Positions 9,640-33,980 of a DNA stretch of 48,569 nt are shown piece by piece (within the stretch, counting starts at the first letter, position 1; each line of letters opens with the position of its first letter). The DNA lies in contig NZ_RAWE01000057.1 of NCBI RefSeq assembly GCF_003611695.1, positions 1 through 48,569 of the forward strand. Direction: 5' to 3'. This DNA comes from Corallococcus carmarthensis. GTDB taxonomy: Bacteria; Myxococcota; Myxococcia; Myxococcales; Myxococcaceae. Both the position numbers and the translations under genes were made by a program. The notes below the pieces were generated by a model. It saw only the letters and a program-made list of their open reading frames with translations, did no database searches and had not been told where the DNA came from.

Positions 9640-9692
9640 TTGACAGCTCTGGAGCCACAGTTAGATCTTTCCTGTTTTCTGACTGGGAAAAC
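9640..9692 (+). promoter_or_regulatory. Promoter and inverted-repeat operator of the ACP-to-FAAL lipid operon
   Basis: A consensus -35 TTGACA (9640-9645), a 16-base spacer and TAGATC (9662-9667) predict a start near 9674. Exactly there lies GTTTTC (9674-9679), seven bases and GAAAAC (9687-9692), a perfect 6-base inverted repeat in an otherwise GC-rich region. It is positioned for repression of the six-gene operon that follows. Confidence 0.55.
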
Positions 9693-9723
9693 GACTTTCA
9701 AGCCCTGGGAAGGAAGGTCCCCC

Positions 9724-10020
9724 GTGCCCGACGCGCAGGAGCTCGAGTCATACATCCGACGGAAGTTTGCGGAAAACGTGGGTCTCACGGAGGCGGAGCT
9801 TTTCTCCGAAGACCTGTCACTCGCGGCGCTGATCACGCGCTCCGAGCGCATGACCAACAGTGTTGACCTGATGGAAGCCTTTGCCCGCACGTCCAACGGG
9901 CTGCGCAAGGATTTTGGACTGCGGGTGCGCCTGCCCGCACTGTCACTGGATACACCTGTGTCAAAGGTCCTGGCGGTTTTCATGGGTGAAGTCACGAACC
10001 CAGAGCGGAAGTCGGCATGA
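9724..10020 (+). CDS. Acyl carrier protein, dedicated to the lipid operon
   Basis: A 98-residue acidic helical protein that I read as an acyl carrier protein. The phosphopantetheine site is NSVDLMEAF with Ser46; the usual DSL Asp is Asn45. Helix 1 is AQELESYIRRKFAENVGL and the C-terminal helix is TPVSKVLAVFMGEV, as in stand-alone carrier proteins. The GTG at 9724 is chosen because AGGAAGG (9711-9717) lies 6 bases before it; frames opening at 9640 start inside the promoter. The stop overlaps the desaturase start (ATGA). The presence of a holo-ACP synthase gene two genes downstream supports the call. Confidence 0.8.
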   Translation: MPDAQELESYIRRKFAENVGLTEAELFSEDLSLAALITRSERMTNSVDLMEAFARTSNGLRKDFGLRVRLPALSLDTPVSKVLAVFMGEVTNPERKSA

Positions 10021-10979
10021 GCGTCCTGGCGCGCAGCCTCGAGCACGAAGAAGCGACCGTCGCCTCCCCCTCTCATCCCCTCCCGCACGAAGGCCGCCCG
10101 GCCATCATGGCGGAGCTGTACGAAGCCCTGACCCAGCGGGGCCTGTCGCTGGTGGACATCACCTGGGAGCAGCAGCGGTTGCATGAGTCGCGGCGCTGGA
10201 GCGTGGTGGAGATGCTCTCCTCGGTGGACTTCACGCACGTGGGTGAATCCGACCGGCACCTGGTGTGGAACGCGGGGCGCGCGGAGCTGACGACGAAGCC
10301 GGGCGCGGACCGGTTGGAGCGGCTGGCGGACGTGGAGTGCCGCCGGTGGCAGGAGAAGAACCCCACCGTCGCGGCCATCATGCAGGCGTGCGGCACGTGG
10401 AGCAGGTACTGGAACGAAGAGGAGGCGCACCACGAGACGGCGTTCAACCGCCTGTCCACGGTGCTGCGGCTGGAGCCCATCTCCGACGCCACCTTCATCG
10501 AGTTCCGCAAGGTGTTCCCCGACGACGACATGCTGCGCACGCTCACGCTGCTGGCCATCTCCGAAGTGGTGGCGGCGGTGGACTACGGCCAGTGCTCGCA
10601 GATGGTCCAGGACCCGGGCCTGCGCGCGTTGTTCAAGCAGGTGGCCGCGGACGAGGTGCAGCACATGACCTACTTCGTCGCCTTCGCCAAGGCGCTGGTG
10701 GACAGCGGCGCCTACCAGGCGAAGGAGGCGTTCGCGGTGGCGCACCTGTTCCTGCGCGACGGCGGCGAGGTGCACGGCAGCAAGCGCGAGCGCGTGGAAT
10801 CCCGCGACACCCACGTCAACTGGTGGGATCAGCTGGAGCACCGCGAGGGCTTCTACGCGCCGGACGCGCTGCGCAAGAAGGAGCAGCTCATCTTCCACGC
10901 GCTCAAGCGCATCACCGGCATCACGGTGACGTCGCGCGAGGACGTGGAAGACACCTGGATGGACCTCGTCGGGTGTTGA
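10017..10979 (+). CDS. Soluble diiron acyl-ACP desaturase-like enzyme
   Basis: A 320-residue ferritin-like protein that aligns with plant stearoyl-ACP desaturase and mycobacterial DesA. The segment WSRYWNEEEAHHETAFNRL matches [20 protein letters not shown] and gives Glu136 and His139. Glu183 (ISEVVAAVDYG) matches the third-helix ligand. AADEVQHMTY gives Glu213 and His216. I could not place the first-helix Glu with certainty. Such enzymes use two irons and O2 to put a double bond into an acyl chain held on ACP; related diiron enzymes hydroxylate, decarboxylate or make alkynes. It is coupled to the ACP gene on one side (ATGA) and to acpS on the other (TGATG). Confidence 0.82.
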   Translation: MSVLARSLEHEEATVASPSHPLPHEGRPAIMAELYEALTQRGLSLVDITWEQQRLHESRRWSVVEMLSSVDFTHVGESDRHLVWNAGRAELTTKPGADRLERLADVECRRWQEKNPTVAAIMQACGTWSRYWNEEEAHHETAFNRLSTVLRLEPISDATFIEFRKVFPDDDMLRTLTLLAISEVVAAVDYGQCSQMVQDPGLRALFKQVAADEVQHMTYFVAFAKALVDSGAYQAKEAFAVAHLFLRDGGEVHGSKRERVESRDTHVNWWDQLEHREGFYAPDALRKKEQLIFHALKRITGITVTSREDVEDTWMDLVGC

Positions 10980-11344
10980 TGGGGTTGGGCCATGACCTCC
11001 AGGCCGTCACGGAGCTGGAGGCCTCACGGGCCCTGCGGGAGCCGGACATCTTCTTCACCGCCGCGGAGCTCGCCCACTTCGAGCACGCGGCGAACCCGGT
11101 GGAGAGTCTGGCCGCGGGGTTCAGCGCGAAGGAGGCCCTCTTCAAGGCGCTGCCCGCGGTGGAAGGTTGGTTCTGGACTGACGCCGAGCTCGTCCACGAC
11201 GCCCGGCACGCGCCACGCTTCCGGTTCCACGGCGCGCTCGCGGCGCACCTGGCCCGCGAGGGCCTGCAGGTCGCTGTATCGCTGTCGCATAGCGGAGGGT
11301 TCGTCTCGACGGTGGTCATCGTGACGCGCGCTCCGTCCCCCTGA
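10979..11344 (+). CDS. acpS: Holo-ACP synthase (4'-phosphopantetheinyl transferase)
   Basis: A 121-residue AcpS-type transferase that moves phosphopantetheine from CoA to the carrier Ser. The magnesium-binding Asp6 is in GLGHDL, and FSAKEALFKAL supplies Glu52 and Lys51. VSLSHSGGFV is the final conserved strand of the family. The ATG at 10979 overlaps the desaturase stop (TGATG). A dedicated AcpS inside an ACP operon is typical of secondary lipid or polyketide pathways rather than of housekeeping fatty-acid synthesis. Confidence 0.85.
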   Translation: MGLGHDLQAVTELEASRALREPDIFFTAAELAHFEHAANPVESLAAGFSAKEALFKALPAVEGWFWTDAELVHDARHAPRFRFHGALAAHLAREGLQVAVSLSHSGGFVSTVVIVTRAPSP

Positions 11345-11384
11345 AGTCGCTGTCCTCCCCCGGCAGCCCGAAGGACATCCCCCC

Positions 11385-11831
11385 GTGCACTTCCAAGAGT
11401 CCACCCTCACTCTGCGCGTGCGTCCCAACGACCTGGACATCCTGGGGCACGTGAACAACGCCACCACGCTGGAGTACCTGGAGGCCGGCCGTTGGGCCTG
11501 GCTGGAGCGGCAGGGGCTGACGCGCGGCGGGCCGGTGGTGGCCGTGGTGTCGCGCGTGGAGGTGGACTACCGCCGGGAGATTCCGCCGGGTGACGTGGTG
11601 GTGCACACGGAGCTGGAGTCGCCCGCCGCGGACGAGCTGGAAGCGGACGGCCTCAACTACCGCGCGCGGTTTCGTCAGCGCGTGTTCCTCGCGACGGACG
11701 GGCCGGTGGCGGTGGAGGCCCTGGTGAGCGTGGCCTTCCTGGATGCGCGGGCCCGGTCACTCGCGTCCCTGCAGCAGTTCCTGGCCGCCGCGCGCGCGCC
11801 GGCATCCACCGTCGAGGAGCCTCGTCCATGA
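11385..11831 (+). CDS. Acyl-CoA/acyl-ACP thioesterase, hotdog (4HBT) fold
   Basis: A 148-residue single-hotdog thioesterase. The signature RPNDLDILGHVNNATTLEYL carries the likely catalytic Asp18 followed by GHVNN, and RVEVDYRREIPPGD is the second conserved strand-loop. It would release the modified acyl chain from ACP or CoA. The GTG at 11385 has GAAGGA about 11 bases upstream. The stop is overlapped by the next gene (ATGA at 11828-11831). It is cotranscribed with the ACP/desaturase genes. Confidence 0.85.
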   Translation: MHFQESTLTLRVRPNDLDILGHVNNATTLEYLEAGRWAWLERQGLTRGGPVVAVVSRVEVDYRREIPPGDVVVHTELESPAADELEADGLNYRARFRQRVFLATDGPVAVEALVSVAFLDARARSLASLQQFLAAARAPASTVEEPRP

Positions 11832-12745
11832 GCACGAACGCGAAGCCGGACTTCGCCTCGCAGGAGTTCTGGGTCCCCACGTCCCAGGAGCACGCGCTGC
11901 ACGTCGTGGAGGCGCGCATGTCCGGGACGCCGGCCTCCGCGCCCGGCATCCTCTTCGTCCCGGGCCTGTTCTCCGACGGCCGCTTCTTCCTGGGCGGGCA
12001 GGGTGACGGCCCCGCGCGCTTCTTCGTGGACGAGGGCTGCGTGGCCTATGTCGCGTCCCTGCGGGGCCATGGCAAGAGCCGCTGGCCCGCGAAGCGCGCG
12101 CACGACTGGAGCTTCGACACGTACGTGCGCCACGACGTGCCGGACCTGGTGCGGGCCGTGCGCGCGCGCCACCCCGGACCGGTGTTCCTGCTGGCCCACA
12201 GCATGGCGGGCTACGCGGCGCTGGCGGCCCTGGGCGTGGACCCCTCGCTCCAGGAGTCGTTGTCTGGCGTGGCCACGCTGTCCTCGGCGGTGAATGACTA
12301 CAGCGACGGCGGGTTCAAGAAGCGCTTCCAGCTGGGCTTCTCGTCCACGGTGGCGGGGCTCCTGGGGCGCTTCCCGGCGAAGGCGCTGAAGCAGGGGCCG
12401 TGGGATGAACCGGCGGGCGTGATGCGGCAATTCACGGACTGGGCGCCCACGGGCGCGTTCCGGAGCGCGGACGGCGCGACGGACTACTGGAGCGCGCTGG
12501 GCAAGGTGACGCTGCCGGTGTTCGCGGGCGTGGGCGCGGCGGACATGTTCCATGCGTCGCCGGTGCGCGCGCAGAAGCTGGTGGCCCACCTGGGCAGCGC
12601 TCGCAAGGAGCTGGCCGTGCTGGGGCGCGCGCAGGGGTTGAGCTGGGACGCGGGTCACTTCGACGTGGTGCGCGGAGAGCGCGCCCGGGCCGAGGTGCTG
12701 CCCCGCGTGCTCACGTGGATGCGCCAGGTCGCGCCCGCGCACTGA
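11828..12745 (+). CDS. Alpha/beta hydrolase
   Basis: A 305-residue cytoplasmic hydrolase (no signal peptide). The nucleophile elbow is AHSMAG with Ser125, a variant of GxSxG with Ala on both sides, and the catalytic His is His277 in DAGHFD. FVPGLFSDGRFF forms the oxyanion strand-loop and ASLRGHGKS the next conserved loop. The substrate is unknown; from context a fatty ester or thioester. It is translationally coupled to the thioesterase gene and lies 26 bases before the fatty acyl-AMP ligase start. Confidence 0.83.
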   Translation: MSTNAKPDFASQEFWVPTSQEHALHVVEARMSGTPASAPGILFVPGLFSDGRFFLGGQGDGPARFFVDEGCVAYVASLRGHGKSRWPAKRAHDWSFDTYVRHDVPDLVRAVRARHPGPVFLLAHSMAGYAALAALGVDPSLQESLSGVATLSSAVNDYSDGGFKKRFQLGFSSTVAGLLGRFPAKALKQGPWDEPAGVMRQFTDWAPTGAFRSADGATDYWSALGKVTLPVFAGVGAADMFHASPVRAQKLVAHLGSARKELAVLGRAQGLSWDAGHFDVVRGERARAEVLPRVLTWMRQVAPAH

Positions 12746-12771
12746 AGAAACCAGAGGAGGGGAGGTTCCGC

Positions 12772-14523
12772 ATGCTCGACATCATCCAGCGGCTGGAGTC
12801 GGTGGACCCGCGACGCGGCCTGTATCTCTATGAAGACTTCGTCGGACCGCCGGAGTTCGTGCCCTACCGGGAGTTCGCCTCCCGGGTGGCCGGAGCGGCG
12901 GAGCACTTCCGCGCGCGCGGCGTAGCGCAGGGCACGCGCGTGGTGCTGCCCTTCGAAACCTCGTCGTCCGTCATCTTCGCCTTCCTGGGGCTGATGGAGC
13001 TGGGCGCGGTGCCGCTGTCCGTGAAGCCGTACATCCTGAGCACGCCGAAGGGGCCCTACCGGGACTTCCTCGCGCGCATCCGCGAGCGCTACGGCGCCTC
13101 GCTCGTGCTGGACGCGCCGAGCCTGTCCGGACTGGAGCTGCCCCTGGAGCGGCTGCCGCTGCCGCCCGCGGGCGCGAAGGTCGCGGGCGCGAAGCTGCGC
13201 GAGGTGGCACCGGGAGAGCTGGCGTTCGTGCAGTTCTCGTCGGGGTCCACGTCGTTCCCCAAGGGCGTGCCCATCACCCAGGAGAACCTGGCCGCGAACC
13301 TGCGGATGATCACCCGGCATGACGGCCGCACGACCGGGGACCGGGTGACGAGCTGGCTGCCGCTCTACCACGACATGGGGCTCATCGGCGGGCTGCTCAC
13401 CTGCATCGCGGTGGGCAATGATCTGCTGCTGTCCCAGCCCGCCTCGTTCCTGATGGATCCCATGGGCTGGCTGGAGCTCATCTCCAGCGAGCGGGTGATG
13501 GGCTCCGTCATCCCCAACTTCGCCATCGACTACGCGCTGAAGACGCTCAAGTCAGCGGACGCGGACGACCTCAAGCGGTTGGACCTGTCGCGCGTGCGGA
13601 GCATCTACCTGGGCAGCGAGCCCATCAACATCCCCAACCTGGAGCAGTTCCTGGACATCCTCGCCCCGTGCGGCCTGCGGCGTGACGTGTTCATGCCCTG
13701 CTACGGCATGGCGGAGACGGTGCTGATGGTCGCGAGCGTGCCGCCGGGCCAGACGGTGCGCGTCATCACCGCGCCCAACGGGCAGCCCGCCATCTCCGTG
13801 GGCCGGCCGCTGACGGAGTTCGAGGTGCGGCTGCGCACCGAGGACGGCCGTCTGTGCGGCGAGGGCGAGCTGGGCGAAATCGAGCTGCGCGGTGGCAGCC
13901 TGGCGCCGTCGTACTACCAGGACGACCGTCCCCTGCGCGGCGACGAGGGCTTCTACGCCACGGGCGACCTGGGCTTCCAGAAGGCCGGCGAGCTCTTCAT
14001 CACCGGGCGGATCAACGACCGCATCAAGGTGAACGGCCAGAGCTTCTTCTCCGCGGACTTCGAGCAGGCCGTGGAGCGGCTGGCCTTCATCCGCCCGGGC
14101 CGCACCGCCGTCATCCAGGTGAAGGGGCGCCTCGTGGTGCTGGCGGAGGTGAACCATCCGTCCGCGCTGGAGCGCCTGGAGGACAGCCGCAAGCAGGTCT
14201 GCCAGTCGGTGCTGGAGACGGTGGGCGTGACGCTCCCGCCCCAGGACGTCCTCTTCATCCGCTACGGCCAGCTCCAGAAGACGAGCAGCGGCAAGCTCCA
14301 GCGCCGCTCCATCACGGAAGCCTACGAGCAGGGCCGCATCCGCACCGTGACGCCCATGGAGCTGCGCGCGGACCTGCTCCAGATGCGCGCCCAGCGCATC
14401 GTCCTGGGCTCGGTGATGGTCGCGCGGCAGCGGGGCCGCCGGTGGATGGCCTCCGGGAAGGCGGCGCTCTCCGCGGGCCTCCAGCGGCTGCGGCCAGGAG
14501 GCCAGCGTCAGGACGGGCCCTGA
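12772..14523 (+). CDS. Fatty acyl-AMP ligase (FAAL)
   Basis: A 583-residue adenylate-forming enzyme of the FAAL type, which activates a free fatty acid as acyl-AMP and passes it to a carrier protein rather than to CoA. Key motifs are FVQFSSGSTSFPKGV (P-loop, around residue 154), SWLPLYHDMGLIGG (the FAAL/FadD32-type core), MPCYGMAET and FYATGDLGF. Unlike most FAALs the region after GYGMAE is compact, and the C-terminal Lys is in SSGKLQRRS. The ATG at 12772 has a strong GGAGGGGAGG site; the ATG at 12715 lies inside the hydrolase gene. As last gene of the operon it supplies the substrate for the ACP. Confidence 0.87.
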   Translation: MLDIIQRLESVDPRRGLYLYEDFVGPPEFVPYREFASRVAGAAEHFRARGVAQGTRVVLPFETSSSVIFAFLGLMELGAVPLSVKPYILSTPKGPYRDFLARIRERYGASLVLDAPSLSGLELPLERLPLPPAGAKVAGAKLREVAPGELAFVQFSSGSTSFPKGVPITQENLAANLRMITRHDGRTTGDRVTSWLPLYHDMGLIGGLLTCIAVGNDLLLSQPASFLMDPMGWLELISSERVMGSVIPNFAIDYALKTLKSADADDLKRLDLSRVRSIYLGSEPINIPNLEQFLDILAPCGLRRDVFMPCYGMAETVLMVASVPPGQTVRVITAPNGQPAISVGRPLTEFEVRLRTEDGRLCGEGELGEIELRGGSLAPSYYQDDRPLRGDEGFYATGDLGFQKAGELFITGRINDRIKVNGQSFFSADFEQAVERLAFIRPGRTAVIQVKGRLVVLAEVNHPSALERLEDSRKQVCQSVLETVGVTLPPQDVLFIRYGQLQKTSSGKLQRRSITEAYEQGRIRTVTPMELRADLLQMRAQRIVLGSVMVARQRGRRWMASGKAALSAGLQRLRPGGQRQDGP

Positions 14524-14542: not shown

Positions 14543-15652
14543 TCAACGCGCCTTCGCGGAAGCCCACAGGTCCCAGCCGCGCGCCGCGTGGCACGCATCG
14601 CCCACCAGGTCCAGGGCGAGCTGGGGCTGTGTCCGGGATAGCGCCTCGGTGTCGCGGAAGGCGCCCGTGGCCTCCAGCCGGAGCGTGGCGTGCTCCAGCG
14701 CGGCCTTCGCCTCCTCCACCGCGCGGGCCTGCGCGGGCGTGGGCTTCCAGCCCGTCTCGTCCCGGTAGCGCCCCAGGGCCTCCAGGAAGTGGCCATGGAA
14801 CTTCACCATCTGCACCAGCACCGGGACGCGGTACGCGGGCGCGGCGGTGAGCGCGGCCTCGTACTGCCGCGACTCCGAGGCCAGCCGGTACACCAGCACG
14901 TCCACCTGCGCGTCCAGCCGCGGACCCCACGCCTTGCGCACGGAAGGGAAGCGCGCCCAGCCCGCGACGGCCTGGAAGAAGTGGAGCCCGCCACACGGGT
15001 GCGCGTAGATGCCCTGCTTGTTCTTGGGCAGCTGGGGAAGGCCCGCCTTCATGCCCCGGGCCAGCTCCGCCTGCGCGGCCTCCAGCGTGGCGAGCGCGGT
15101 GTCCATGACCGCGTCCATTCGCACCGTCTCACCCGCGCCGTTGACGAAGGACTGCCCGGGCTCCAGCACGTGCGACAGCGCGTCCAGCGCCCACGCTCCA
15201 TCCGGCGACGCGGCGAGCGCGGGGCGGAAGTCATGTTGGAGTGACGCCACCAGTTCGCGCAGCGTCACCTGGCCCCACGCCGTGCGGAAGGAATGCGAGC
15301 GCGGGTATCCAGCGAGCAGGAACGTCTTCACCTGGAGCGCCGGGTGCGGCTCCACGGGCGTGCCGTCCGGGGTGAAGGCGTCGAAGAAGTAGCGGGCCGT
15401 GCCTCCCGCGTCGGGGGCGTCGCGGCGCAGGAACCCCGCGACGATGGCGTCCGAGGCCGGGCGGCCGTCACGCGCGCGGAAGGCCTTCCCGTCCAGGTCC
15501 ATGCCGTGCGCGAGCGCCCAGGGCCGGGACGGATCCGCCGCGTGCGTGCGGCACTGCGCGTGGAGCAGCGCGGACGCGGAAGGCGCGGCGGGGGAGGGTG
15601 GGGGAGCGGCGCTCAGGCCAAGCCCGAGCAGGGCCACGAAGGAGGGGAGCAT
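14543..15652 (-). CDS. Secreted protein of unknown function
   Basis: A 369-residue protein with an N-terminal signal peptide (LPSFVALLGLGLSAAPPPSP). I do not recognise a family. The body is helical, and conserved-looking stretches include YAHPCGGLHFFQAVAGWA, MVKFHGHFLEALGRYRDETGW and LDLVGDACHAARGWDLW. Three His and two Cys cluster in these, which might bind metal. The start is uncertain: ATG at 15652 gives the better signal peptide but has no clear ribosome site; an in-frame GTG at 15691 is the alternative. It is convergent with the FAAL gene and lies 51 bases downstream of the marR stop, so it may be read as the last gene of the efflux operon. Confidence 0.55.
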   Translation of the reverse strand: MLPSFVALLGLGLSAAPPPSPAAPSASALLHAQCRTHAADPSRPWALAHGMDLDGKAFRARDGRPASDAIVAGFLRRDAPDAGGTARYFFDAFTPDGTPVEPHPALQVKTFLLAGYPRSHSFRTAWGQVTLRELVASLQHDFRPALAASPDGAWALDALSHVLEPGQSFVNGAGETVRMDAVMDTALATLEAAQAELARGMKAGLPQLPKNKQGIYAHPCGGLHFFQAVAGWARFPSVRKAWGPRLDAQVDVLVYRLASESRQYEAALTAAPAYRVPVLVQMVKFHGHFLEALGRYRDETGWKPTPAQARAVEEAKAALEHATLRLEATGAFRDTEALSRTQPQLALDLVGDACHAARGWDLWASAKAR

Positions 15653-15703
15653 GGGCGCGGGCAGTGTCGCAGCCCGCGCCCCTCCACGCACCTGCCGTGC
15701 CCG

Positions 15704-16266
15704 TCAGCGCGGCGGGGCGCCGCACTTCATGCGGGCAAGCATCCGCTCGATGATGCCGAAGAGCGCCTCGCGGTCCTCCTCGGGGAGCAGGCCCATCAGG
15801 CGCCGGATGCCGGCGTCCGTCATCAGCTGGATGACCTGGTAGATCTCACAGCCCTTGTCGGTGAGCTTCGCGGTGACGGCGCGGCGGTCCTCCGCGTCCC
15901 GGCCGCGCTCCACCATGCCCATGTCCTCCAGGCGGTCCACCACGCCGGTGATGGTCTTCTTGGTGATGCCGATGCGCTGGGCCAGCACGCCCACCTGGAT
16001 GGGGCCGTCCATGCCCAGCCAGCCCAGGGCGTGCACCTGCGTGGGGGTCAGCCGCATGTCGTCGCAGAGGCTCGCCAGCGGATCCCTCAGGGAGCGGAAG
16101 TGGGCCAGCTCCCGGATGAGCCCCAGGAAGCGGCGCGAGTCCGGCGTGGACTGGTCCCCTTCCTGGAGCAGTCGCTCCATCGCGGCCTTCTCTTCGGCGG
16201 CCTCGTCCTTCCCCTCGGAGCGCGCGTCGGCGTCCGAGGGGGGCGCGATGGAGGTGGGGCGGCGCA

Positions 16267-16267
<1 letters not shown>
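15704..16267 (-). CDS. MarR-family transcriptional regulator
   Basis: A 187-residue winged-helix repressor. A charged N-terminal extension of about 45 residues precedes the MarR core: TPTQVHALGWLGMDGPIQVGVLAQRIGITKKTITGVVDRLEDMGMVERGRDAEDRRAVTAKLTDKG. The helix-turn-helix and the wing with the DxRR motif are visible. Its ATG overlaps the stop of the RND gene (ATGA at 16267), so it is the third gene of the adaptor-RND-MarR operon and probably represses its own operon from the promoter near 20630-20656 in response to a pump substrate. Confidence 0.9.
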
Positions 16268-19416
<3,149 letters not shown>

Positions 19417-19452
19417 TCAGATACCCAGGGAAGAAGAGGGGAGGAGGGACCG

Positions 19453-20553
19453 CTACTGCGCGACGCGCACGGCGGTCCCCTCCTTGACGTCCAACGAGGC
19501 GTCGGCGAGCACGCGCTCCTCCGCCGTCAGGCCCTGCAGCACCTTCACGTAGCCCGGCAGCACGCGCTGCACGCGCACGTCGCGCTTGCGCACGGTGCCG
19601 TCCTGCACCACCCACACGAAGCCGTCCTGGCCCTTGCTGCTGACCGCCTGCGCGGGCAGGAACAGGCCGTTGCCCGCGTCGCCCGCGGCCTTGGAGAAGT
19701 CCATCTCCACCAGCGCGCCCGGACGCAGCGGGTGATCCGTCTTACCGGTCACGTCCGCCAGCACCTCCACGGTGCGGCTCTGCGCGTCGATGACGGCGCC
19801 CACGTTGGCCACCTTCGCCTCGAAGCGCATGCCGCTGGGGTTCACGGTGCCCGGCGTCACGATGCCCGGCGTCACGTTGTCGATGACGGACTCCGGCACC
19901 ATCATCCGGATCTCCAGCCCGTCGGCGTCCACGATGGAGAACACCGGGGTGGAGGGCGTCACCGCCACGGAGTCACCCACGTTCTTGTTGCGCGCGGTGA
20001 TGATGCCGTTGAAGGGCGCGATGATGGAGTGATCCCGCAGGTTCTCCACCGCCAGCCGGTAGGCCGCGCCGGCCTGGGCCGCCTGGGCCGCGGCCTGCTT
20101 CTGGCCAATCTCCACCTGCTCCAGCGCGTTGGCCGCGACGCCGCCGGACTCGGCCACCTTGCGCGTGCGCTCCAGGTTGCTGGAGGCCAGCTGCAGCGCG
20201 GCCTCCGCCATGTCCTTGGCCGCCTTCGCCTGGTCCACCGCGATGCTCACGTTGGACGTGTCCAGCTGCGCCAGCACGTCGCCCTTCTTCACCTTGTCGC
20301 CCACCCGGACGTTCACCTTCGCGAGCGTGCCCGTGGCCTGGGGACCCAGGACGGCCTCCTGCTTGGAGCGGACCTGGCCGGTGACGCGCGTCACGTTCTG
20401 CTCCAGCTCGGTGGCCGGGGTGATCGCCTTGACTCCCAGCGCGTTGGAACCCTCCTGCTGCGCCGGCAGCTGCGCCTTCTCCGCGCCCGCCTTCGAGCAC
20501 CCCGCCGTCGACACAGCCACGGCCACCACGGCAGCCAAGATTCGCTGATTCAC
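19453..20553 (-). CDS. RND periplasmic adaptor lipoprotein (membrane fusion protein)
   Basis: A 366-residue membrane fusion protein that links the RND pump to an outer-membrane channel. The lipoprotein signal AVSTAGC puts the lipidated Cys at residue 19. The lipoyl half-motifs are GTLAKVNVRVGDKVKKGDVLAQLD and LRDHSIIAPFNGIITARNKNVGDSV, flanking an alpha-helical hairpin rich in Ala/Gln. A beta-barrel and a membrane-proximal domain (ending GTAVRVAQ) follow. The start is GTG at 20553 with AGGAG nine bases upstream. It is the first gene of the adaptor-RND-MarR operon. Confidence 0.93.
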   Translation of the reverse strand: MNQRILAAVVAVAVSTAGCSKAGAEKAQLPAQQEGSNALGVKAITPATELEQNVTRVTGQVRSKQEAVLGPQATGTLAKVNVRVGDKVKKGDVLAQLDTSNVSIAVDQAKAAKDMAEAALQLASSNLERTRKVAESGGVAANALEQVEIGQKQAAAQAAQAGAAYRLAVENLRDHSIIAPFNGIITARNKNVGDSVAVTPSTPVFSIVDADGLEIRMMVPESVIDNVTPGIVTPGTVNPSGMRFEAKVANVGAVIDAQSRTVEVLADVTGKTDHPLRPGALVEMDFSKAAGDAGNGLFLPAQAVSSKGQDGFVWVVQDGTVRKRDVRVQRVLPGYVKVLQGLTAEERVLADASLDVKEGTAVRVAQ

Positions 20554-33779: not shown

Positions 33780-33980
33780 AAGAGTCCCCCGCCGAGCCGT
33801 GTGTCCAGCGTCCATTGAACCCTTAGAAGCCAGGTGGGGACCGAAATCATGTCACCGCAGGCTTCCCTCATCCCCGGTGAAGGGGGAGGGCTTGCACATG
33901 GCGACCGAAACGGACCCCGGAATGGACGTATCGGTTCGAATTTCTGCTGGGCATCACGCACCCCGCAGGGAACAGACCTT
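33780..33980 (-). ncRNA. ssrS: 6S RNA (probable)
   Basis: 6S RNA binds the sigma-70 holoenzyme and mimics an open promoter. On the minus strand this segment folds into one long interrupted hairpin of about 200 bases. The closing stem is GTTCCCTGC (33973-33965) with GCGGGGGAC (33792-33784). An inner stem is CGTCCATT (33928-33921) with AATGGACG (33816-33809), perfect over 8 pairs, with a large asymmetric bubble beside it. Further in are GGGG.CCG/CGG.CCCC and CATGT/ACATG stems and a CCCTCCCC-loop-GGGG..GAGGG apical hairpin. Segments such as GAACCGAT and TCGGTCC resemble conserved E. coli 6S blocks. It sits directly upstream of the 5-FCL gene, the classic location. A T-rich tail (33781-33773) follows. 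Exact ends are not determined. Confidence 0.72.

Follow-up and report, generated by a model that had tools for sequence, protein, structure and literature searches.

We analysed a stretch of 48,569 nucleotides (the window) from the myxobacterium Corallococcus carmarthensis (assembly GCF_003611695.1, contig NZ_RAWE01000057.1, positions 1 to 48,569 of the forward strand). On its plus strand, six co-directional genes (9724-14523) encode a probable acyl carrier protein (ACP), a ferritin-like diiron enzyme, an AcpS-type phosphopantetheinyl transferase, a hotdog thioesterase, an alpha/beta hydrolase and a ligase resembling fatty acyl-AMP ligases (FAALs), in that order. Related gene sets form a portable cassette, mostly of five or six genes, that is present in myxobacteria, actinomycetes, cyanobacteria and Xenorhabdus and is sometimes plasmid borne. 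The original prediction, made from the window alone, had described a six-gene operon with overlaps of 1-4 bases at three junctions, and both points are borne out. The ACP and diiron genes overlap by ATGA (10017-10020), the diiron and AcpS genes meet in TGATG (10977-10981), and the thioesterase and hydrolase genes overlap by ATGA (11828-11831). Gaps of 40 bp (11345-11384) and 26 bp (12746-12771) separate AcpS from the thioesterase gene and the hydrolase gene from the ligase gene, respectively.

The feature had been said to start at 9640. That position opens a TTGACA box (9640-9645, plus strand), the probable -35 element of the operon promoter, and the first gene begins at a GTG at 9724, preceded by GGAAGGAAGG. 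In an alignment of the window with nine relatives, the box is invariant in all 10 sequences, and the relatives have a GTG or ATG start aligned with 9724. An operon promoter is thus likely, and a promoter scan found no complete sigma-70 site. An operator had been proposed as well. An inverted repeat is visible in the window, but it is not kept exactly in the nine relatives, so a conserved palindromic operator is not upheld.

The first gene (9724-10020, plus strand) probably encodes a dedicated ACP of 98 amino acids with S46 as its phosphopantetheine site, judging from the predicted fold, the conserved serine and the gene context. No PP-binding match was found in 20 ACP relatives at E ≤ 1, and the sole Pfam match among them (NCKAP5, in 3 of 20, E ≥ 0.15) was judged to be due to chance. 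Searches of Pfam and of Protein Data Bank sequences with the ACP gave nothing useful. Residues N45, S46, D48 and L49, within the motif NS[V/I]DL, are invariant in 20 of 20 sequences. The structure predicted by AlphaFold (AF2) from 20 sequences is a four-helix bundle (predicted local distance difference test [pLDDT] score, 87.5) in which S46 opens helix II. Most of the 50 rows of the VIA structural list are carrier proteins by title (Z 6-8). The two highest-scoring rows (Z 8.6 and 8.0) come from chloroplast motor complexes; each is a chain of 85 residues that the entry title leaves unnamed. Among the rows titled ACP, 8z5e and 4zjb score best, at Z 7.8 with a root mean square deviation (rmsd) of 2.9-3.0 over 76 aligned residues.

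The second gene (10017-10979, plus strand) encodes a predicted ferritin-like diiron enzyme of 320 amino acids that resembles acyl-ACP desaturases. Its probable iron ligands, E90, E136, H139, E183, E213 and H216, are invariant in all nine rows chosen from type I, type II (both described below), Nostoc and Xenorhabdus loci. Both EExxH and DExxH are kept, and the resulting set of two histidines and four carboxylates occurs together with a ferritin-like fold. EExxH and DExxH are the motifs of the plant acyl-ACP desaturases (SAD). Two other candidates for iron ligands, E107 and the pair E135/H138, were dropped, as E107 and H138 vary in a wider alignment. A locus in a Deltaproteobacteria metagenome-assembled genome (L054) was left out of the ligand rows because its diiron gene is incomplete; that copy (L054:6905-7762) lacks about 20 residues including DExxH and is either a dead copy or an assembly error. 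Among eight families, FA_desaturase_2 gave the best result, matching 22 of 23 members of the diiron enzyme's group with a best E of 1.2e-5. The best solved relative is DesA2 (E 0.005 by sequence and 3.6e-5 by profile). The AF2 model (pLDDT 81; predicted template modelling score, 0.83) gave Z scores of 15.3-17.1 over 226-245 aligned residues (rmsd 3.2-5.3) among the VIA matches listed, and its Foldseek matches (best E 1.7e-3) include R2lox, stearoyl-ACP desaturase and DesA2. AurF and BioE are not in the VIA list for this enzyme, which excludes nothing. Desaturation would be its likeliest chemistry.

The four remaining proteins have clearer relatives. AcpS (10979-11344, plus strand, 121 amino acids) matches PF01648 at 39.3 bits against a cut-off of 25, its best solved relative is the holo-ACP synthase 2wdy (E = 4e-13), and D6, E52 and K56, which we take to be catalytic, are invariant in 20 rows. 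The FadM/YbgC-like thioesterase (11385-11831, plus strand, 148 amino acids) matches PF13279 (4HBT_2) at 60.7 bits against 25.5 and has 2fuj, 1njk (YbaW) and 2cye as solved relatives. Its probable active-site residue, D18, is invariant in 22 rows, a count that leaves out L041 and L046 (contig end, run-on frame). The hydrolase (11828-12745, plus strand, 305 amino acids) matches PF12146 (Hydrolase_4) at 48.6 bits against 27, with a probable triad of S125, D239 and H277 that is invariant in 18 rows. The ligase (12772-14523, plus strand, 583 amino acids) has AMP-binding and DIP2-like domains above the Pfam cut-offs. Its best solved matches are FAALs (E 1e-59 to 4e-31) plus McyG; some of these are deposited as acyl-CoA synthase but are presumably FAALs. 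Amino acid adenylation domains follow from 2e-30, an AMP-dependent synthetase at 1e-19 and a long-chain CoA ligase at 1e-18, which places the predicted ligase closer to FAALs than to acyl-CoA ligases. The NCBIfam model MbtM matches it at 206 bits, below its cut-off of 621.

Conservation of the gene order beyond close strains had been set as a test of the prediction beforehand, and it holds over 48 loci in four phyla. These loci are the window, 20 Myxococcota loci (18 genomes), L054, 16 actinobacterial type I loci, seven type II loci and three plasmids. A genome stretch present in duplicate was counted once, and the 4-kb stretches L001-L024 were not counted apart, so that several members of the genus lie outside the 48. 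The ACP and diiron genes are adjacent in 48/48, the thioesterase is present in 47/48 and AcpS in 36/48. The ligase gene lies downstream on the same strand in 45/48, the exceptions being L054 (upstream), L071 (contig end) and L090 (no thioesterase or ligase nearby). At L090 (genome G081) the ACP-diiron pair stands alone; the contig copy L044 shows an adjoining MFS transporter, and the same genome has a fuller operon at L091. In the type II loci, which belong to Streptomyces and the Saccharothrix family, the diiron enzyme is 34-40% identical and the order ACP-diiron-AcpS-thioesterase-ligase is kept in 7/7.

The hydrolase is present in 22 of the 48 loci, and a crotonase-fold protein, which matches ECH_1 and for which no closer assignment was found, is encoded in eight, two of them on the opposite strand. 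The two were never seen together in the 48 loci, although two of these are cut off too early to tell: the contig of L071 stops within the thioesterase gene and that of L054 shortly after it. Eight of the 16 actinobacterial type I loci have the hydrolase and eight the crotonase, with exactly one each in the 15 that can be judged. On the diiron tree this pattern needs at least two changes, the hydrolase being in the neighbouring Corallococcus group, and some forks are weakly supported. The pattern is not a probability, because the loci share ancestry.

Some loci have further neighbours. All seven type II loci (L063-L067, L100 and L101) have genes for an Abhydrolase_3 protein, a class I/II aminotransferase and an MDMPI_N-domain protein upstream. 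Five loci of Streptomyces and Saccharothrix (L042, L043, L068, L069 and L049) adjoin genes for an acyl-CoA dehydrogenase, a ThiS-family protein with a GG terminus, a second, divergent FAAL and an unknown protein of 276 amino acids, a neighbourhood that is possibly a cluster for a sulphur-containing lipid. The second FAAL, the ThiS-like protein and the acyl-CoA dehydrogenase were rejected as core genes, as most loci are without them.

The four phyla are Myxococcota, Actinomycetota, Cyanobacteriota (plasmids) and Pseudomonadota (a plasmid). Within the genus, 14 of 16 genomes have a near full-length relative, as do 24/145 in the order and 24/195 in the phylum. At E ≤ 0.001, 31 of the 145 show some match, seven of these being short and 27-30% identical. 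In Actinomycetota, where the genus and family samples include their centre genome, the counts were 8/295 for the genus Streptomyces (three at 70-72% and five at 37-39% identity, loci already known included) and 2/150, 3/35 and 6/200 for the families around the Catellatospora, Frankia and Saccharothrix loci. When 396 genomes were drawn evenly from Actinomycetota, the centre genome was the only one with a match, and the cassette is therefore rare and patchy. Among 72,556 plasmid records three carry it, namely two Nostoc conjugative plasmids with the order ACP-diiron-AcpS-thioesterase-ligase and one Xenorhabdus plasmid with the order ACP-diiron-thioesterase-hydrolase-ligase. Identity to the window proteins is 48-61% for Nostoc and 39-60% for Xenorhabdus, and the plasmid ACP genes, annotated as hypothetical, were read as ACPs from the NS[V/I]DL motif. 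The plasmid stretches also hold integrases, transposases and hypothetical proteins, and those of Nostoc have no other evident pathway beside the cassette; on pNsp_b an FAD-dependent oxidoreductase gene lies about 2 kb further on, on the other strand. No relatives were found in viral contigs (two peptide patterns) or phage records.

Two Corallococcus genomes (G065 and G071) keep the flanks, consisting of genes for a kinase, a regulator, SCP2, a CoA-transferase, an unknown protein, MarR, an RND pump, a membrane-fusion protein and an acyl-CoA dehydrogenase, and lack exactly the six genes, with about 25 and about 118 bp between the flanking matches. The six genes may have been lost there or may never have been present. 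The CoA-transferase, SCP2, MarR and RND-pump genes were rejected as members of the unit, since they remain in place in its absence. In three operon-free genomes from other genera (G042, G043 and G072) the upstream genes are kept as far as the CoA-transferase. The four Hyalangium-group loci examined (L085, L087, L092 and L093) have the operon in the same location, flanked by the CoA-transferase and the unknown gene. Together, the conserved grouping across four phyla, the Nostoc plasmids and the clean absence from two syntenic genomes support the predicted self-contained unit for activating, tethering, modifying and releasing an acyl chain. Downstream in the window, the minus strand (14546-20553) encodes the unknown protein, a MarR regulator (from Pfam), an RND pump and a membrane-fusion protein, the latter two named from sequence reading; these genes are syntenic also in the two sister genomes without the operon. 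Further on lies a 6S RNA gene (33782-33974, minus strand, 68.3 bits).

In a midpoint-rooted diiron tree, from which Nostoc and Xenorhabdus were left out, all actinobacterial type I enzymes group in a single clade (100/99), which is nested among the myxobacterial rows as a neighbour of Corallococcus (95/97). This placement points to transfer between phyla, in one direction or the other. When pairwise distances of the ACP, diiron enzyme, thioesterase and ligase were compared across 31 loci (type II left out), the correlations were 0.77-0.90, and 0 of 2000 permutations were as high for any of the six pairs, although related rows inflate the values. The Hyalangium loci L085 and L088 have the ACP-diiron pair twice in tandem. 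At L084 the pair is 73-76% identical to that of the window and AcpS, thioesterase, ligase and CoA-transferase are 83-91% identical, so the pair looks as if it had been replaced together. These patterns fit a diiron enzyme that may be tuned to its own carrier.

Family knowledge suggests how the parts, observed here in their content, order, boundaries, catalytic-type residues and spread, could work together. The ligase would use ATP to convert a free fatty acid to acyl-AMP and load it onto the dedicated carrier, which would be primed by the cassette's AcpS. The diiron enzyme, which may be co-adapted with this carrier, would then use O2 and host-supplied electrons to oxidise the acyl chain, most likely by removing two hydrogens to give a double bond, and the hotdog thioesterase would release the modified free fatty acid. 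The alpha/beta hydrolase, or the crotonase-fold protein in other lineages, may serve an optional finishing or clean-up step. Replacement by a crotonase would suit work near the thioester end, which we take as a hint only. A horizontally moved, free-standing fatty acid tailoring cassette, with a double bond as the most likely outcome and the modified free acid released, is our best explanation, and we give it slightly better than an even chance. A bolder version appears doubtful at present, namely that this is a mobile antibiotic or signal cassette in which the soluble diiron enzyme, together with its own carrier, takes the part played by membrane desaturases in polyyne clusters and dehydrogenates the tethered acid repeatedly or site-selectively; the free acid released would be conjugated, alkynyl or unsaturated at the alpha,beta/beta,gamma positions. 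If it were true, the tandem ACP-diiron pairs of Hyalangium would add a second unsaturation and the actinomycete crotonase would shift the bond.

Several observations weigh against the tailoring cassette, or against desaturation as its chemistry. Among the parts named in the original prediction, AcpS, thioesterase, hydrolase and ligase stand above their Pfam cut-offs, whereas the ACP has no Pfam match and the diiron enzyme stays below the cut-off of FA_desaturase_2 (E = 5e-4, 19.3 bits against 22.7). Because the VIA tool grades Z scores such as those of the ACP as middling, and Foldseek alone gave E ≥ 0.23, its identity leans also on the serine and the context. Rubrerythrin matches 21 and COQ7 11 of the 23 diiron members, two type II diiron enzymes match no Pfam family at E ≤ 0.01, and in NCBIfam one Nostoc and one type II enzyme gave only weak ferritin-like, DPS or R2lox matches. 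Foldseek found nothing at E ≤ 0.001 with the diiron model. In the ligase, the stretch after YGMAE, which presumably holds the FAAL-specific insertion, falls short of that in the solved FAALs 7r7f, 3pbk and 3kxw by 16-18 residues. AcpS is missing from 12 of the 48 loci, 18 have neither hydrolase nor crotonase, and the operon contains no electron-transfer gene. Both Nostoc plasmids have two hypothetical genes ahead of the ACP, so the five genes there may be an incomplete set. Finally, acyl-ACP desaturases come out level in VIA with R2lox, ribonucleotide reductase R2, VlmB and an aldehyde deformylating oxidase; as all of these score alike, the fold fixes the superfamily and not the reaction.

One rival is a cassette of the same logic in which the diiron enzyme would hydroxylate, epoxidise or cleave the acyl chain, so that a hydroxy-, epoxy- or shortened acid would be released. 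In its favour, R2lox and other ferritin-like oxidases are as close in fold as the desaturases, but FA_desaturase_2 has the most members matched and the best E value, DesA2 is the best solved relative, and the EExxH and DExxH motifs are as in plant acyl-ACP desaturases. None of this is decisive, and we regard oxygen insertion or cleavage as possible but rather unlikely. More improbable is ordinary membrane-lipid housekeeping, in which scavenged fatty acids would be recycled and desaturated for phospholipids. The near-constant presence in the genus and the lack of any polyketide synthase (PKS) or nonribosomal peptide synthetase (NRPS) among the 19 window proteins scanned would agree with it. Against it stand the patchy distribution elsewhere (order and Streptomyces counts above), the plasmid-borne copies, the dedicated carrier and usually AcpS too, the traceless absence from two sister genomes, and the presence, in half of the 16 actinobacterial type I loci (8), of a co-directional MFS transporter gene upstream. 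A halogenating cassette of the CylABC type is very improbable, for although ligase, carrier and soluble diiron enzyme stand together as in the available text on CylABC/NocLMO (PMC8406957, PMC12101540), a CylC-type dimetal halogenase is disfavoured by residues, the signature QExxH / HxxDExxH, as given in the available text of PMC12101540, being replaced by EExxH and VxxDExxH, with E135 for Q and V209 (V or I in the relatives aligned) for the third His.

The logic of activating, tethering and modifying a fatty acid is already known from the JamABC, polyyne and CylABC cassettes. Polyyne and JamB-type desaturases are membrane bound, and the MbtM-MbtL-MbtN system of mycobactin combines a similar ligase and carrier with dehydrogenation of acyl-ACP by a flavin enzyme, MbtN, the product going to the siderophore. 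The soluble acyl-ACP desaturases, plant SAD and mycobacterial DesA, have the ferritin-like fold in common with the cassette enzyme, with only a borderline sequence match, and act on the general ACP of fatty acid synthesis. The polyyne cassettes (jamABC with two desaturases, a thioesterase and a rubredoxin, as for cepacin, caryoynencin, collimonin and protegencin) share a ligase loading a dedicated carrier, desaturation and a thioesterase. The available text of PMC8406139 describes these clusters as transmissible, names no PKS or NRPS among their seven common genes, and places their desaturases in family IPR005804, as a triad with rubredoxin; here there is one ferritin-like diiron enzyme and usually a dedicated AcpS. 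Working without PKS or NRPS, which the original prediction had treated as a distinguishing mark, was therefore too strong a claim. The JamABC alkyne trio also shares ligase, carrier and desaturase, but its desaturase is of another family, it has neither AcpS nor thioesterase, and it feeds a PKS/NRPS line, as far as the available text of PMC11837247 goes. The JamB-type Pfam family is not among the eight families matched by the 23 diiron members at E ≤ 0.1. Rubredoxin had no match in the 19 window proteins scanned (38 open reading frames called) and is not annotated on the Nostoc plasmid stretches, whose gene table is incomplete. Because it has neither a JamB-family desaturase nor a rubredoxin, the cassette does not belong with the polyyne or JamABC systems. 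With CylABC/NocLMO it shares ligase, carrier and a soluble ferritin-like diiron enzyme acting on acyl-ACP (PMC8406957 and PMC12101540, available text), a pairing thus already described; membership there fails because the cassette enzyme lacks the signature of the halogenase, described in PMC12101540 as having a 3-His site. Acidomycin and diazo clusters were rejected as assignments, since their gene content is unlike that of the cassette in the available text (PMC13336041, PMC13061610).

What looks new is the class of the oxidase, the dedicated AcpS and the spread over several phyla as a free-standing unit. We could not find a description of a desaturase-like ferritin-fold enzyme combined with its own carrier, AcpS and thioesterase in such a unit; the search covered the open-access titles and starts of abstracts among the PubMed Central matches listed, with subscription papers and preprints outside its scope. 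If this reading holds, the cassette can convert an ordinary free fatty acid to an oxidised one from start to finish, and it is small enough to be transferred whole, bringing its carrier and in most cases its primer along, among phyla that compete in soil and in symbioses. Sister Corallococcus genomes either have the entire unit at one locus or are free of it, so that simply comparing such strains offers a way to look for the product. For C-H chemistry on acyl-ACP, the conserved diiron family and its cognate carrier would also open a new line beyond halogenases and membrane desaturases.

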